DNA of 64,000 nucleotides, taken from contig NZ_WUWG01000001.1 in NCBI RefSeq assembly GCF_009833495.1, positions 744,001 through 808,000 of the forward strand, read 5' to 3'. Position 1 is the stretch's first letter. Each line of letters starts with the position of its first letter. This document shows, in pieces, positions 1 to 48,681 of the stretch. The position numbers and the translations under genes were made by a program. The notes under the pieces were generated by a model. It was not told where the DNA came from, did not search any database, and was given only the letters and a program-made list of their open reading frames with translations. Source of the DNA: Oceanomicrobium pacificus (GTDB lineage Bacteria > Pseudomonadota > Alphaproteobacteria > Rhodobacterales > Rhodobacteraceae).

Positions 1-688
1 CCGCCTGTCGTTCGGCCTCCGATCCCGCCGCGCGGAGGGCCTCGTAAGCCTCCAGCGGGAATTTCGAATCGATGACGATGGGACCTGGCGGTTTCGGTAG
101 GTGGATCAGGCAATCCGCCCGTTTGCCGTTTCCGAGCACCGCCTGGAACGCGTAGCTGTCGGCGGGCAGCGCTTTCGAGACGATGTCATTCAGCTGGATT
201 TCCCCGAACGCGCCACGGGTCTGCTTGTTGGACAGGATATCCTGCAGGCTCAGAACGTCGCCCGACAGTTTCTCGATATTGGACTGGGCGCGGTCGATCA
301 CTTCGAGCCGTTGCTGCAACTCGCCCAGCGAGCGCGCGGTCCGGGTGGAACTGCCATGCAGCGTCTCTGCCATGCCGCGCTGCACCTCTTCGAGCCGCCT
401 GTCGATATTCTGCTGCAAATGGCTTTGCGCACGGGTCTGCGCTTCGGCCACCTGCTGCAATCCTCCCGCCAGTTGCTGCTGGCCCATCGACAGGCTGCGG
501 ACCGTCTCGCCCAGCGCCTGCATCTGCGCCTGCATCTCGCCCTGCATCGGCGTGAGCACAGAGGTGGCACGGATCTGCGCGCGCAGAACGAGCCAGACCA
601 TCAGGAACAGCAACAAAAGGACCGCCCCGCCAAGCGTGAGCGCGGCCAGCACCGGATCGGCCCGCATCATGTCCAGGACCCCCGTCAT
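1..688 (-). CDS. rmuC: DNA recombination protein RmuC, C-terminal end cut by window edge
   Basis: About 229 codons are present; the 3' end lies beyond base 1. RmuC is a nuclease-like protein that limits recombination between inverted repeats. The N-terminus has one membrane segment (about residues 10-30, rich in Leu/Val), followed by a long Gln/Glu/Arg-rich coiled coil (about 35-140). The start of the conserved RmuC domain follows, with [17 protein letters not shown] and [20 protein letters not shown]. The start ATG (686-688) overlaps the mutL stop as ATGA, so the gene is probably translated by coupling behind mutL. Confidence 0.9.
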
Positions 689-2568
689 CCGCTGCGCCCG
701 AACAGTCGCTCGATATCCGCAAGGCCCAGCGTCACATAAGTCGGGCGCCCGTGATTGCACTGGCCCGATTTCGGCGTCGCCTCCATGGCGCGCAGAAGCG
801 CGTTCATCTCGTCGGCGCTCATCCGGCGGCCCGACCGCACTGATCCGTGGCAGGCAATCCGGCTCAACACCGCGTCGATCCGGTCCGACAGGAGCTGGCT
901 GCGGCCCGCATCGGCCAGTTCATCCGCCATGTCGCGCAGAAGCGCTCCCGCGTCGACCTTGCCGAGGAGCGCCGGCACCGACTGGACGCAGACCGCGCCG
1001 CCGCCGAACGGCTCGACCTGAAGGCCGAGCGCGGCCAACTCTTCCGCATGATCGAGAATCCGTGTCCGGTCGGCCTCCGGCAGGTCGACGATCTCGGGGA
1101 TGAGCAGCGCCTGCGCGGCGATGCCATGCTCCGCCCGCTGGGCTTTCAGCCGTTCGTAGACGAGCCGCTCATGCGCGGCATGCTGGTCGACAATGACCAT
1201 ACCGTCCGGCGTCTGGGCGATGATGTAATTTTCGTGGATCTGCGCCCGCGCTGCGCCGAGCGGACGGGCCTCCGCATCCGTATCCGGCACCGCTTCGTCC
1301 GCGCCGTCCGGCTCTACGCGCGCGGACCAGAGCGCCGCGCCATCGCCGAAGCCCGGCATGTCCTCGCGCACGGGGCGGAGCGGGGCTGCACGGCGCTCCT
1401 GAGCCGCCAGCGGCATCTGGTAGCGGCGCGGCGCCGTGTCCGGATGGTCGTCCGCTTGCGGCGCGGCGGATGGTTCCTGCCGCATCGCGCCCAGCATCGC
1501 GGTGCCGACCGTGCTCGATGCGCGGTGACCCGCGTCTGCCAGCGCCGCACGCACCCCGTTGATGAGCAGGCTGCGCACCAAAGCGGCATCGCGGAAGCGC
1601 ACTTCCGACTTGGCCGGGTGGACATTCACATCGACCCGCTCGGGATCGACCGTCACGAACAGCGCCGCCGCGGGATGGCGGTCGCGGCTCAGCACGTCGG
1701 AATAGGCGGCCCGCAACGCGCCGAGCAGCAGCCGGTCCTTCACCGGGCGGCCATTGACGAAGAGGAACTGCGACACGGCTGCCCCGCGCGAATAGGTGGG
1801 CAGCGCCGCGAAGCCGGTCAGGCGCACCCCGTCGCGCTCGGCATCGACCCGAACCGCATTGTCGGCAAATTCCGGGCCAAGCACCTGCCGCAGCCGGCCG
1901 TGCAGCGCGGAGAAAAGATCTCCCGTCTCCGGGTCTGCGCGGAACAGCGTGCGGTTGGAGCCCCGATCGCGCAGCGTGAAGCCGACACCCGGCTCCGCCA
2001 TGGCGAGCCGCCGCACCACATCGCCGATCGCCTGCGCTTCGGCCCGGTCGGTGCGCAGGAACTTCAGCCGGGCCGGCGTGGCATGGAAAAGGTCGCGCAA
2101 CTCCACGACAGTGCCCGGATTGCCCGCTGCCGGCAGCACGTCCGACATGCGCCCGCCATCCACCGTGATCCGGCAGGCCGACGCCGCGCCCGGCGGGCGC
2201 GAGGTGATGCCGAGCCGGCCGACAGCGCCGAGCGAGGGCAGCGCCTCCCCCCGGAAACCGAATGTGTGGATGTTCAGAAGGTCCGTTCCGTCGATCTTGG
2301 AGGTGGCGTGCCGCGACAGCGCAAGCGGCAATTCCTCGGCCGGTATCCCGGTGCCGTCATCGCTCACCCGGATCAGCGTCTTGCCGCCATCGGCATAGTC
2401 GACCGAAATGCGCCGCGCGCCGGCATCGAGCGCATTCTCCACCAGTTCCTTGACCGCCGAGGCCGGCCGCTCGACCACTTCACCGGCCGCAATCCGGTTC
2501 GCCGCCGCTTCGTCAAGCTGGCGGATCGGGGCGCGGGAAACCTCTATCTTGTGGGTGGATGCGTTCAT
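685..2568 (-). CDS. mutL: DNA mismatch repair protein MutL
   Basis: A 627-residue MutL. The N-terminal GHKL ATPase shows [10 protein letters not shown] (41-50), DDGTGIP (70-76) and GFRGEAL (104-110). The C-terminal dimerisation domain carries [12 protein letters not shown] starting near 461, which fits the DQHA(X)2E(X)4E endonuclease motif, plus ACHGSVRSG and GQCNHGRPT. The protein is therefore expected to nick DNA itself, as in bacteria without MutH, coupling mismatch recognition by MutS to strand removal. The linker (about 350-440) is low-complexity. The stop overlaps rmuC by 4 bases. Confidence 0.97.
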
Positions 2569-42577: not shown

Positions 42578-43039
42578 TCAGAGCGGCTTGCGGAAGAACA
42601 CCCTGTCGAATCCTTCATCCTCGCGCCGGGCGATGGCCGTGTAGCCGAGGCGGGCATAGAGCGCGCGGTTCTCTGTCATTCGTGCATGCGTGTAGAGCGT
42701 GACGGCCGGACAGCCCGCGTCCCGCGCGGCCGTTTCGCAAGCGGCGATCATCTGCCGCCCACGCCCCTGACCACGGGCGTCGGGATGCACGGCCACATTT
42801 TCAAGCAGCATGTCTCCATCAGGCTGGACATGCCAGGTGATGAAGCCGAGCGGCCGCCCGTCCGGTCCGTCCAGCACGCGCAGCTCGCCCGCCGCCACCT
42901 GCGCGGCATAGTCGATATCGAGCGGCTTGGGGCGTTGGCCGATCCGCGCCACATAGGGCGTGTAGGCGGCCTCGGCTATGGCCAGAACGGCCGCCAGATC
43001 AGCCGGTCCCGCCACCCGCAATTCAGCCGCGCCCGCCAT
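42578..43039 (-). CDS. GNAT family N-acetyltransferase
   Basis: A 153-residue acetyltransferase. The acetyl-CoA-binding loop is ENVAVHPDARGQGRGRQMIAACE, and RALYARLGYTAIARREDEGFDRVFFRKPL ends the fold. Its start (ATG 43037-43039) overlaps the ggt stop by one base (TGATG), so it is translated behind gamma-glutamyltransferase. The substrate is unknown. Confidence 0.9.
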   Translation of the reverse strand: MAGAAELRVAGPADLAAVLAIAEAAYTPYVARIGQRPKPLDIDYAAQVAAGELRVLDGPDGRPLGFITWHVQPDGDMLLENVAVHPDARGQGRGRQMIAACETAARDAGCPAVTLYTHARMTENRALYARLGYTAIARREDEGFDRVFFRKPL

Positions 43040-44622
43040 CAGTAGCCCAGCGCGCAACCGTCCTTGCGCGGGTCGGAGGCGCCGCTGAGCAGGCCGGTAT
43101 CGGGATCGATCCAGATCGCCTGCGCGCCGCCGAGCGCCACCTCGGGAATGGTCACCGAGTGGCCCATGGCTTCCAACTGTTCGCGCACGCTCTCGGGATA
43201 GCCGCGCTCGACCTCCATCGACCCGTCGCGGTTGAAGCTGCGCGGCGCATCGACCGCTTCCTGCAATTCCATACCGTAATCGACAAGGTTGGACAGAAGC
43301 CGGACATGCCCGTTCGGCTGGTAGGCCCCGCCCATCACGCCGAACGGCATCAGAAGCTTGCCTTCCTTGCGCAGCATCGCAGGGATGATCGTGTGCAGCG
43401 GCCGCTTGCCGCCGCCCGCCTCGTTCGGGTGGCCCTGCTCCAGCGTGAAGCCCGCGCCGCGGTTCTGGAAGCCGATGCCGAACCTCTCCGACGCGAGGCA
43501 GGAGCCGAAACTGTGGAAGATGGAATAGATGAGTGACACGGCCATCCGGTCCGCATCCACAACCGTCAGATAGACCGTATCCTTGTGCACCTGTTCGGAA
43601 AGCGCAGCCGGCGACCGCATGGCGCGTTCGGGGTCGATGAGCCCTGCCAAAGCCTTGGCTGTGTCTTCCGACAGCAGGTGATCGAGCCGCGCGCCCGGTG
43701 CGTCGGCCTCGGCCATGAACCGGTTGCGGGCGTCATAGGCGAGCTTCGCCGCCTCGGCTTCGATATGGGCGCGGCGGGCGCCAAGCGGCGGCAGCGACCC
43801 GATATCGAACTGCTTGAGGATATTTGCCATCAGGATCGCCGTCGCGCCCTGTCCGTTCGGCGGCAGTTCGACAAGTTCATAACCGCGATAGTCGCCGCTC
43901 ACCGGTTCCACATAGTCGCACGCCGTCGCCGCGAAATCGTCAAGCGTGTGGGTGCCGCCGAGCGCACGCAGCGAATTGACCATATCGTCGGCCACCTCGC
44001 CCTCATAGAAACCGGCGCGCCCGTCCATGGCGATCTTTTCCAGAACCTCGGCCTGTTTCGGGGCGCGGAAGAGCGTGCCGACCTTCGGCACCGCACCGTC
44101 CACCAGATAGAAATCCCGCGCCGCGCCCTTCAGGTCCGGCGCCGCCAGCGCCCAGTCGAACGCCGTCCGCGGGCCGACCGGCACGCCGGCGCGGGCATAG
44201 TGGATGGCGGGCGCCAGCGCCGTCTTCAGACCGAGCCGCCCCCAATCTGCCGAGAGCCGCACGAAAGCATCCACCGCGCCCGGCACGGTGACGGCATCGG
44301 CCGAAAAGGCCGGCATGGTCGTGTGGGCGGCGTCCCGCAGCCGTGCGGCGTCGAGCCCGGCCGGTGCGCGGCCCGACCCGTTCAGCCCGACGATCCGGTC
44401 CTCCCCCGCGGGCTGGACAAGTGCGAAAAGGTCGCCGCCGATCCCGGTCATCTGCGGTTCGCAAAAGCCCAGAAGCACCGCAGCCGCAATGGCCGCATCC
44501 ATGGCGTTGCCGCCCTGCTCCATCATCTGGACTGCGACCTTGGCCGCAAGAGGGTGGGAAGTGGCGCACATGCCGTTGGTGGACAGGACGACGGAACGTC
44601 CAGGGAGGTGGAAATCACGCAT
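43039..44622 (-). CDS. ggt: Gamma-glutamyltransferase family protein
   Basis: A 527-residue Ntn-hydrolase precursor. The N-terminal half carries GNAMDAAIAAAVLLGFCEPQMTGIGGD. The autoprocessing site and nucleophile Thr is expected at Thr349 in KDTVYLTVVDADRMAVSLIYSIFHSFGS, giving large and small subunits. GVMGGAYQPNGH is the usual oxyanion region. No signal peptide is visible, so this member is probably cytoplasmic. It may hydrolyse gamma-glutamyl compounds or another amide. The 583-bp gap upstream is unusually rich in structure. Confidence 0.9.
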   Translation of the reverse strand: MRDFHLPGRSVVLSTNGMCATSHPLAAKVAVQMMEQGGNAMDAAIAAAVLLGFCEPQMTGIGGDLFALVQPAGEDRIVGLNGSGRAPAGLDAARLRDAAHTTMPAFSADAVTVPGAVDAFVRLSADWGRLGLKTALAPAIHYARAGVPVGPRTAFDWALAAPDLKGAARDFYLVDGAVPKVGTLFRAPKQAEVLEKIAMDGRAGFYEGEVADDMVNSLRALGGTHTLDDFAATACDYVEPVSGDYRGYELVELPPNGQGATAILMANILKQFDIGSLPPLGARRAHIEAEAAKLAYDARNRFMAEADAPGARLDHLLSEDTAKALAGLIDPERAMRSPAALSEQVHKDTVYLTVVDADRMAVSLIYSIFHSFGSCLASERFGIGFQNRGAGFTLEQGHPNEAGGGKRPLHTIIPAMLRKEGKLLMPFGVMGGAYQPNGHVRLLSNLVDYGMELQEAVDAPRSFNRDGSMEVERGYPESVREQLEAMGHSVTIPEVALGGAQAIWIDPDTGLLSGASDPRKDGCALGY

Positions 44623-44739
44623 GGGTCGGGCATCCTTGAAAAATCGCGCTCACCGTATCGGCGCGGGCGGGCGATTTCCAGACGCGAAACACACCGAAGC
44701 GTCGGCGCAGTGAAGACCGGCAACAGGCGCTTATCGGCA

Positions 44740-44767
44740 GGGGGGTGTGGGGGAGGGGGTTGGGGGG
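44740..44767 (+). other. Strong G-quadruplex motif
   Basis: Four long G-tracts in the order G6-TGT-G5-A-G5-TT-G6. Loops are 3, 1 and 2 nt. This is among the strongest quadruplex-forming arrangements possible and lies in the gap between ggt and the DUF2794 gene. Confidence 0.8.
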
Positions 44768-44877
44768 TAATTCCGGCGTCGTGACGTTTAGGGTGGGGGC
44801 AAAAACGAAACGACGCCGGTGCAGAAAACTGCTTGGAAAGTTATTGCGTTCAATCAGGACCGAACCGCGCCGAAATT

Positions 44878-44927
44878 GTGGTCATTTTGTGGTCGCAGGT
44901 GAACGCAGCGTGAACCTGACAGTGTTC
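44878..44927 (+). repeat. Five helically phased GTGnnC repeats
   Basis: GTGGTC at 44878 and 44889, GTGAAC at 44899 and 44910, and GTGTTC at 44922. Start-to-start spacings are 11, 10, 11 and 12 bp, so all copies face the same side of the helix. This is the layout of direct-repeat operators for OmpR-type regulators. Confidence 0.5.
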
Positions 44928-44940
44928 TCAGGTCTTTTTT
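44914..44940 (+). terminator. Intrinsic terminator in ggt-DUF2794 gap
   Basis: ACCTGA (44914-44919) pairs with TCAGGT (44928-44933) around an 8-nt loop, followed by CTTTTTT. The 5' arm could instead pair with CAGGT at 44896-44900, so an antiterminator form is possible. Confidence 0.6.
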
Positions 44941-44949
44941 GCCCAATTT

Positions 44950-45039
44950 CCGGTAATTCCTGCCCCAAGCGGGGCTGAAACGGGGACTGCGAATCTATTG
45001 GGAATCAATAGCCGCAGTCGCGCCCAAGAAATTACCCGG
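44950..45039 (+). ncRNA. Three-way-junction fold of unknown type
   Basis: The closing stem CCGGTAATT (44950-44958) pairs with AATTACCCGG (45030-45039) with one bulged C. Inside are hairpin GCCCC-AAGC-GGGGC (44962-44975) and a second hairpin: GACTGCG (44985-44991)/CGCAGTC (45013-45019) plus CTATTG/CAATAG with loop GGAAT. A closed three-way junction upstream of a gene start resembles a riboswitch or leader RNA, but I cannot match it to a known class. Confidence 0.4.
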
Positions 45040-45205
45040 TGCCTGCCAGTCAAGGTGGGGGCTGACGGCGGACACCGGGTCTGAAGCTTTAAAAGCTACA
45101 GGCCAAACTGGTACAGCCACGGATTCCGGCTGTCATCGGCAAAAATCCAGTCTTTCCAAACTGATCGGAAGGCGCGGCAAAGCTGCAACAGATGTTGACC
45201 TTGCA

Positions 45206-45586
45206 ATGACGCGGCGCATTCCGCACACTTCGATCATGCATCACGGAACAACAGGCACCGTCAGCACATTTCCTTCCGCGCCCCTGCCGGTCAGTTTTCA
45301 CAGAACGGAACTGGCGGTGATCCTCGGGCTTTATGGCCGCATGGTCGCCGCCGGGGAATGGCGCGACTACGGGATTTCCGCCCTGCGGGACGTGGCGATC
45401 TTCTCCATCTTCCGGCACACGGCGGAACATCCGATCTACCGGATCGAGAAACGCCCCAAACTTGCGCAGCGGCAGGGCATCTATGCGGTGATCGGGATGG
45501 ACGGGCGGATCCTGAAGCGCGGCCACGATCTGCCGACCGTCCTGCGCGTGCTGGAACGCAAGCTGATCCGCGCCGTCGCGGACTGA
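45206..45586 (+). CDS. DUF2794 family protein
   Basis: A protein of up to 126 residues, conserved in alphaproteobacteria. The core VSFHRTELAVILGLYGRMVAAGEWRDYGISALRDVAIFSIFRHTAEHPIYRIEKRPKLAQRQGIYAV is typical of DUF2794. It is rich in Arg and hydrophobics, probably cytoplasmic, function unknown. Start uncertain: ATG 45206 or ATG 45236. TTGACC at 45195-45200 as a -35 box would favour the latter with an almost leaderless transcript. It follows the structured 583-bp gap. Confidence 0.85.
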   Translation: MTRRIPHTSIMHHGTTGTVSTFPSAPLPVSFHRTELAVILGLYGRMVAAGEWRDYGISALRDVAIFSIFRHTAEHPIYRIEKRPKLAQRQGIYAVIGMDGRILKRGHDLPTVLRVLERKLIRAVAD

Positions 45587-48654: not shown

Positions 48655-48681
48655 AAAAGGCGGCCGATGGGGCCGCCTTTT
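48655..48681. terminator. Bidirectional intrinsic terminator
   Basis: AAAAGGCGGCC (48655-48665) pairs with GGCCGCCTTTT (48671-48681) around GATGG. It has a U-tract on both strands and serves the convergent carbonic anhydrase and asd genes. It is one of very few classical terminators in the window. Confidence 0.9.

Follow-up and report, generated by a model that had tools for sequence, protein, structure and literature searches.

The window, by which we mean the whole 64-kb stretch of DNA analysed, contains a gap (44623-45205) between ggt on the minus strand (43039-44622; gamma-glutamyltransferase, Pfam G_glu_transpept, 428 bits) and a DUF2794 gene on the plus strand (45206-45586; Pfam DUF2794, 135 bits). 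Within this gap lie two tandem copies of a hairpin RNA, both on the minus strand: copy A at 44773-44832 and copy B at 45034-45101. They share the strand of ggt, which lies downstream of copy A, and copy B stands head to head with the DUF2794 gene. The initial annotation had placed one RNA on the plus strand at 44773-44940; copy A does fall inside that interval, but the second copy lies beyond it. In relatives, many DUF2794 genes carry, as judged by eye, the motif CTTGATTT-N~12-GCGCAACTCT a few bases 5' of the ATG, which suggests a leaderless DUF2794 mRNA; by the same promoter-like motif, the DUF2794 start in the window may be 45235.

Each copy consists of a small hairpin followed by a hairpin of 13-14 bp with variable arms and a large loop containing GCCCCCACC. 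The long hairpin of copy A (44773-44819, minus strand), recovered by both covariance models described below and by folding, has 10+5 bp with a 2x2 internal loop, and its minus-strand loop reads UUUUUGCCCCCACCCUAAA. On its 5' side, the small hairpin GCAG-UUUU-CUGC (44821-44832, minus strand) appears in the fold and is placed as the small hairpin is in relatives. Copy B has a long hairpin (45035-45079, minus strand; loop GUCAGCCCCCACCUUGAC), present in the fold and in the model match at 45034-45101, which also covers the 5' end and small hairpin, CUGUAGCUUUUAAAGCUUCAGA (45080-45101, minus strand), where we find the GUAGC start of relatives. A C-rich tail, CCCCCCAACCCCCTCCCCCACACCCCCC (44740-44767, minus strand), read directly from the sequence and unpaired in the fold, lies 3' of copy A; on the plus strand the same interval reads GGGGGGTGTGGGGGAGGGGGTTGGGGGG, a four-tract G-quadruplex motif just 5' of ggt. 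Lying 3' of copy B, a third folded stem-loop, GACTGCG...CGCAGTC (44985-45019, minus strand), is without a U-tract and sits roughly at the terminator-hairpin position of some relatives.

The minus-strand folds of copy A (104 nt; z = -6.55) and copy B (127 nt; z = -6.94) were each more stable than all of 200 shuffled sequences (0/200 as stable). On the plus strand, the fold of 44765-44945 was moderately above chance (z = -2.4; 1/200 shuffles as stable). That fold yields the long hairpin of 10+5 bp with its 2x2 internal loop and the GCAG-AAAA-CTGC hairpin, both as first annotated, the latter being the small hairpin of copy A seen from the other strand. The long-range stem described along with them, of 7 bp with a 6x6 internal loop, also exists, but in the minimum free energy structure it has 9 bp and a 5x5 internal loop.

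DNA similarity of the gap, searched with blastn in 60 relatives, amounted to one exact 22-nt match (window 45011-45032, elsewhere in genome G029, locus L002; E 9e-4), and we therefore sought the family upstream of DUF2794 orthologues. We found such orthologues in 188 of the 198 family genomes, and among the listed regions 5' of 29 of them a hairpin recurred, with variable arms and the loop GGTGGGGGC (plus reading). It was by this route, and not by aligning the gap itself, that homologues were obtained. We built a covariance model, R1, from six hairpins at five relatives' loci, with the window left out. R1 matched 139 of the 198 family genomes at E 0.1, and in the window it ranked copies A (44772-44820; 25.5 bits) and B (21.2 bits) first and second, the next score being 13.7. 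Sixty further regions came from the listed R1 matches, chosen, with some exceptions, by rank of E-value; weaker matches on the list were left out. Alignment A4 holds 30 relatives' copies, aligned out of 33 chosen references, again with the window left out, and a second model, R2, was made from it, so that the window is absent from its seed. In the 64 kb, R2 placed copy B first (30.9 bits, E 1.2e-5, minus strand) and the long hairpin of copy A, which is all of that copy that its alignment covers, second (23.6 bits, E 8e-4), with the next match at 14.4; in the window's own genome copies B and A led again, the next score being 18.3. These scores are modest beside those of relatives, which reach 86.8 bits.

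The structure is conserved. In A4, the long hairpin has 14 pairs with 99.0% of cells paired; two are invariant and the other 12 have changed on both sides, which are the compensatory changes that the initial annotation had named as a test of its RNA. The small hairpin is paired in 84.2% of cells. The whole-structure score was 0.555, compared with 0.237 for shuffled alignments (0/500) and at most 0.118 for slid versions of the structure; for all five whole-structure measures, the observed value exceeded that of every slid version and was reached by 0/500 shuffles. The loop offers an accessible, conserved seed of the kind expected of an sRNA: GCCCCCA is invariant in 30/30 A4 rows, partly by construction, because candidates needed GTGGGGGC in the loop and loop variants were missed. 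The fold of one relative's copy (L135) consists of two hairpins and a terminator. A general closing helix, GUAG/CUAC, was considered and rejected: at least 5 pairs formed in 16/39 class II copies (27% with swapped partners) and in 42/130 class I copies (30% with swapped partners; classes defined below).

Which strand is selected can be read from the mismatches in the stem, as an A.C mismatch corresponds to G.U on the complementary strand. Using R1 matches from loci L071-L160 and the window, we set stem registers by Watson-Crick pairs only and kept 98 of 105 stems (92 distinct), the 7 weak ones that were dropped including window copy B. In the plus reading, the 98 stems contain 1248 Watson-Crick pairs, 67 A.C/C.A, 5 G.T/T.G and 7 other mismatches, counts that are not of independent events since the stem sequences are related. 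The selected molecule is thus the minus-strand RNA, with the loop GCCCCCACC. R1 was made in the plus reading and favours, if anything, G.T over A.C, so that its bias opposes this result. We conclude that the conserved structure and its assignment to the minus strand, both drawn from comparison of sequences, are well supported: secondary structure is conserved on one strand, as expected of an sRNA, and the structured RNA first annotated here stands, its main hairpin covarying, but on the opposite strand. More generally, a fold interpreted with no regard to the polarity of its G.U pairs may be placed on the wrong strand.

We split 171 copies into class I (130 copies, with GCAGCTAC beside the hairpin in the plus reading) and class II (41 copies, including the two in the window). 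A scan for the class I pattern found at least 119 stretches, and later counts use the 80 listed (L161-L240); as this pattern is specific to class I, the ratio of class I to class II carries no meaning. In class II, the DUF2794 gene stands head to head with the RNA in 35/41 copies, 5 of which also have ggt and 30 of which have DUF2794 only; the remainder comprises 5 with ggt only and 1 with neither. In class I, 109/130 copies have ggt downstream, on the same strand and no more than 500 nt away, with 70-371 nt (median 103) from the loop to the ggt ATG. Class I copies also follow an rbaW-like gene, which lies 5' on the same strand in 118/130 (4/41 in class II); among the class I copies without one, 7 had none although there was room and 5 were too short to judge. 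Tandem pairs occur 14 times in 157 loci, at a spacing of 180-262 nt. At locus L208, tandem class I copies without ggt lie tail to tail with a gene (9-1037, plus strand) that matches GCS2 (glutamate-cysteine ligase), a second glutathione gene beside the RNA.

The ends of the RNA differ between classes. A minus-strand terminator lies within 200 nt 3' of the hairpin in 16/41 class II copies (plus strand, 1/41; 0.3 expected), the other 25/41 having none by the rule used, and in 4/128 class I copies (plus strand, 6/128; 1.7 expected); both window copies lack a U-tract terminator. The stretch 3' of class I hairpins is C-rich and G-poor, averaging 11.5 C and 4.6 G per 30 nt; in 97/130 copies the C count is at least double that of G, and copy A, with its tail at 44740-44767, is extreme. 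Such a stretch would suit a Rho-dependent ending or a second pairing region. On the 5' side, the 130 class I copies carry, at -13 to -8 relative to GTAGC, a -10-like stretch with the consensus CATACA (44-62% conservation per position), and no clear -35 element was found in them. Upstream of class II lies a palindromic element, GGTCWTTTTGCGGCMAAAT, perhaps a regulator site: 17/41 copies have it at 15 or more of 19 positions (shuffles, 0), 16 of the 17 at 101-108 nt from the loop. It barely carries over to class I (3/129 at 15 of 19), and the best window matches, 88 and 73 nt from the loop, agree at 14 and 12 of the 19 positions, the better of them, at 44881-44899, being weak. At class II loci, e.g. 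L072, L098 and L142, a palindromic ATTTTGCnGCAAAAT stands at a near-fixed distance upstream, between the RNA start and the DUF2794 gene.

We think it probable, though far from assured, that the window holds two tandem minus-strand genes of one sRNA whose C-rich loop pairs in trans. Transcripts would start near GUAGC (45099) for copy B or AAGCAG (~44834) for copy A, from a promoter of their own, and would be made as RNAs of ~100 nt. Each would fold into a small 5' hairpin and then a 13-14 bp hairpin exposing the loop GCCCCCACC(C). A good part of class II RNAs, upstream of DUF2794, would end at an intrinsic terminator, and class I RNAs, between the rbaW-like gene and ggt, would, like copy A, run into the C-rich tail. 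The loop, and the tail, would then pair with G-rich mRNA sites in trans. In other alphaproteobacteria, sRNAs with C-rich loops pair with G-rich mRNA sites, and a conserved C-rich loop on a stem free to vary in sequence is how a base-pairing sRNA that carries its seed in the loop is built; GsrN and the CcsR RNAs use C-rich loops in this manner. By this analogy, the exposed loop suggests regulation of other messages. In the window's own genome, 30 of 36 GGTGGGGGC sites were examined as targets at start codons (two of the 30 being the RNA copies) and none was convincing, and GGTGGGGGC was not clearly enriched (36 sites, versus 28 for the reversed control).

The placement of class I copies also fits a cis-acting leader, a hairpin in the 5' untranslated region of ggt that regulates this gene. 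Most class I copies lie on the ggt strand about a hundred nucleotides from its start, both window copies point to ggt, and the near lack of terminators in class I means that a leader or an unterminated RNA is possible there. A constant place in the ggt 5' untranslated region was nevertheless not found: ggt lies within 500 nt downstream of 109/130 class I but 10/41 class II copies, and is missing from that distance in 21/130 class I copies. Class II argues further against it, as 30 of its 41 copies have DUF2794 only and 16 end at a terminator. Moreover, a separate promoter for ggt often seems to lie past the hairpin, where promoter-like hexamers had a mean best score of 6.47 versus 4.44 for shuffled sequence and reached at least 8 of 12 in 51/129 copies. 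We regard a ggt leader as an unlikely account of the family. Class I RNAs may act in trans, may control ggt in cis, or may do both.

The initial annotation's own reading, a plus-strand RNA of ~168 nt ending at 44940, drew on a terminator that we also find: the hairpin ACCTGA-N8-TCAGGT-CTTTTTT, with a T6 run, lies at 44914-44939 on the plus strand. Such terminators are, as was said, rare in the window, where a strict scan found 2 in 64 kb (44914, plus strand; 48660, minus strand) and expected 0.03 in front of the window's five T6 runs; given this rarity, the site cannot be put down to chance with confidence. Apart from the site at 44914, only 48660-48676 on the minus strand qualifies as a strict intrinsic terminator with a T6 run. 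With looser criteria applied to 2.5 kb, 3 terminators were found where 1.8 were expected. The rare terminator and the moderately stable plus-strand fold are what this reading has in its favour. The wobble asymmetry, in contrast, assigns the conserved stem to the minus strand, and the terminator lies upstream of the 5' end of copy A rather than at the end of the RNA, and the blastn search of 60 relatives gave no homologue of 44773-44940. Nor was a conserved plus-strand terminator found in relatives on either flank of the hairpin, where such sites are near chance: on the left, 1/41 in class II (0.3 expected) and 6/128 in class I (1.7 expected); on the right, 4/41 in class II including the window (1.9 expected) and 5/129 in class I (3.9 expected). 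We consider this reading very improbable; the terminator may end an unrelated plus-strand transcript.

Least probable, to our minds, is a DNA element (REP-like or a recombination hairpin) not used as RNA, which would fit the several loci and occasional tandem pairs, but for which a G.U-type strand asymmetry would be unexpected, and against which stand the recurring gene contexts and the 1 to 4 matches, rather than many dispersed copies, in each matched genome.

The position of class I copies bears on what a trans-acting sRNA might serve. By Pfam, the neighbours at locus L228 contain HATPase_c_2 and STAS domains, and that at L208 contains HATPase_c_2; from domains and gene order, we infer that the class I neighbours are orthologous to rbaV and rbaW. 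For R. capsulatus, passages of one report (PMC3999984) describe rbaV and rbaW as a predicted two-gene operon on which the loss of CtrA has an effect and near which no sigma gene was found. In this species, the RbaV-RbaW system reportedly influences both viability in stationary phase and the production of gene transfer agent. As 118/130 class I copies lie directly behind an rbaW-like gene, the RNA could be a missing output or feedback arm. A core Rhodobacteraceae regulatory RNA of the RbaV-RbaW partner-switching pathway is a tentative proposal, to which we give rather little weight. The window's genome would then be a derived case, its tandem pair lying beside ggt and DUF2794 and away from the rbaW homologue (33% identity), which is ~45 kb distant. 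From the siting of the RNA after rbaW-like genes and ahead of ggt, we hypothesize a role in stress or stationary phase and in glutathione use.

The RNA has a wide range within Rhodobacteraceae. At E 0.01, R2 matched 228/295 family genomes (one per genus), with no match in the other 67/295 under the stricter filters used in searches of more than 40 genomes, by which weak matches are lost. In the order sample, 133/149 genomes matched, and every listed genome belongs to Rhodobacteraceae. Among 289 genomes of the class, 263 of them unlisted and of unstated family membership, 6 matched; four of the six are Rhodobacteraceae (own genome included), and the two outside the family, at 27.8 bits (E 0.004) and 26.8 bits (E 0.007), are about as many as a search of this size would yield by chance. 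Most of the 80 class I pattern matches listed bear the names of roseobacters or their relatives (Roseovarius, Sulfitobacter, Phaeobacter, Ruegeria, Salipiger and Rhodobacter sp. SW2 among them), and a few are listed under other names, e.g. Enemella, Castellaniella and a Gallionellaceae MAG. As judged by model matches, the RNA is present in most sampled Rhodobacteraceae genera and almost nowhere else in the class sample. An RNA found in about three quarters of sampled genera, from photosynthetic Rhodobacter to marine roseobacters, is absent from Rfam 15; if the sRNA reading is true, it would be a conserved post-transcriptional regulator testable in laboratory species.

With Rfam 15, the window gave only a tRNA at the gathering threshold, and no family reached its threshold in the gap; the initial annotation had likewise recognised the RNA as none of 6S, SRP, RNase P or tmRNA. 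In 20 relatives' loci, no family reached threshold for the RNA, and the gathering scores of SorX, suhB, 6S, SRP RNA, RNase P RNA and tmRNA were not reached by it. In open-access literature, covered as listings and passages, we found no description of it; it may be an unnamed entry in RNA-seq lists, such as the Ruegeria trans-sRNAs of PMC4809877, or among those that Grull et al. 2017 listed for R. capsulatus, as cited in passages of PMC6348098. It is best read as a new Rhodobacteraceae sRNA family of a kind already known, the small regulatory RNA.

Several known sRNAs resemble it in part. SorX (RF02784), which in Rhodobacter derives from an ompR 3' UTR, is an sRNA that is likewise short and of Rhodobacteraceae, and at locus L071 (1743-1816, minus strand; 75.1 bits) it lies beside a class II copy. 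It differs in strand, being opposite to that copy, and in place, and its model does not match the RNA at gathering score. Two rhizobial families, suhB/mmgR (RF00519; 18.2 and 16.4 bits) and BjrC174 (RF02355; 18.3 and 16.6 bits), gave weak minus-strand scores with the copies at L135, far below their gathering scores of 41 and 45 bits and among 15 weak matches, which makes them a lead and not evidence of membership. GsrN of Caulobacter pairs with mRNA through a C-rich loop; its range and contexts differ, and it is set apart here by description rather than by sequence. In Rhodobacter sphaeroides, CcsR1-4 are homologous multi-copy sRNAs with C-rich loops and a CCUCCUCCC-type motif. They share with our RNA the bacterial family and the presence of several copies, but according to passages of PMC8307010 they are cotranscribed with ccaF1, whereas the contexts of our RNA are other than ccaF1. 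StsR of R. sphaeroides, described in passages of PMC8307010 and PMC11354728 as 72 nt long and controlled by RpoHI/RpoHII, is compared by description only; it is a regulatory sRNA of Rhodobacteraceae tied to stress and stationary phase.
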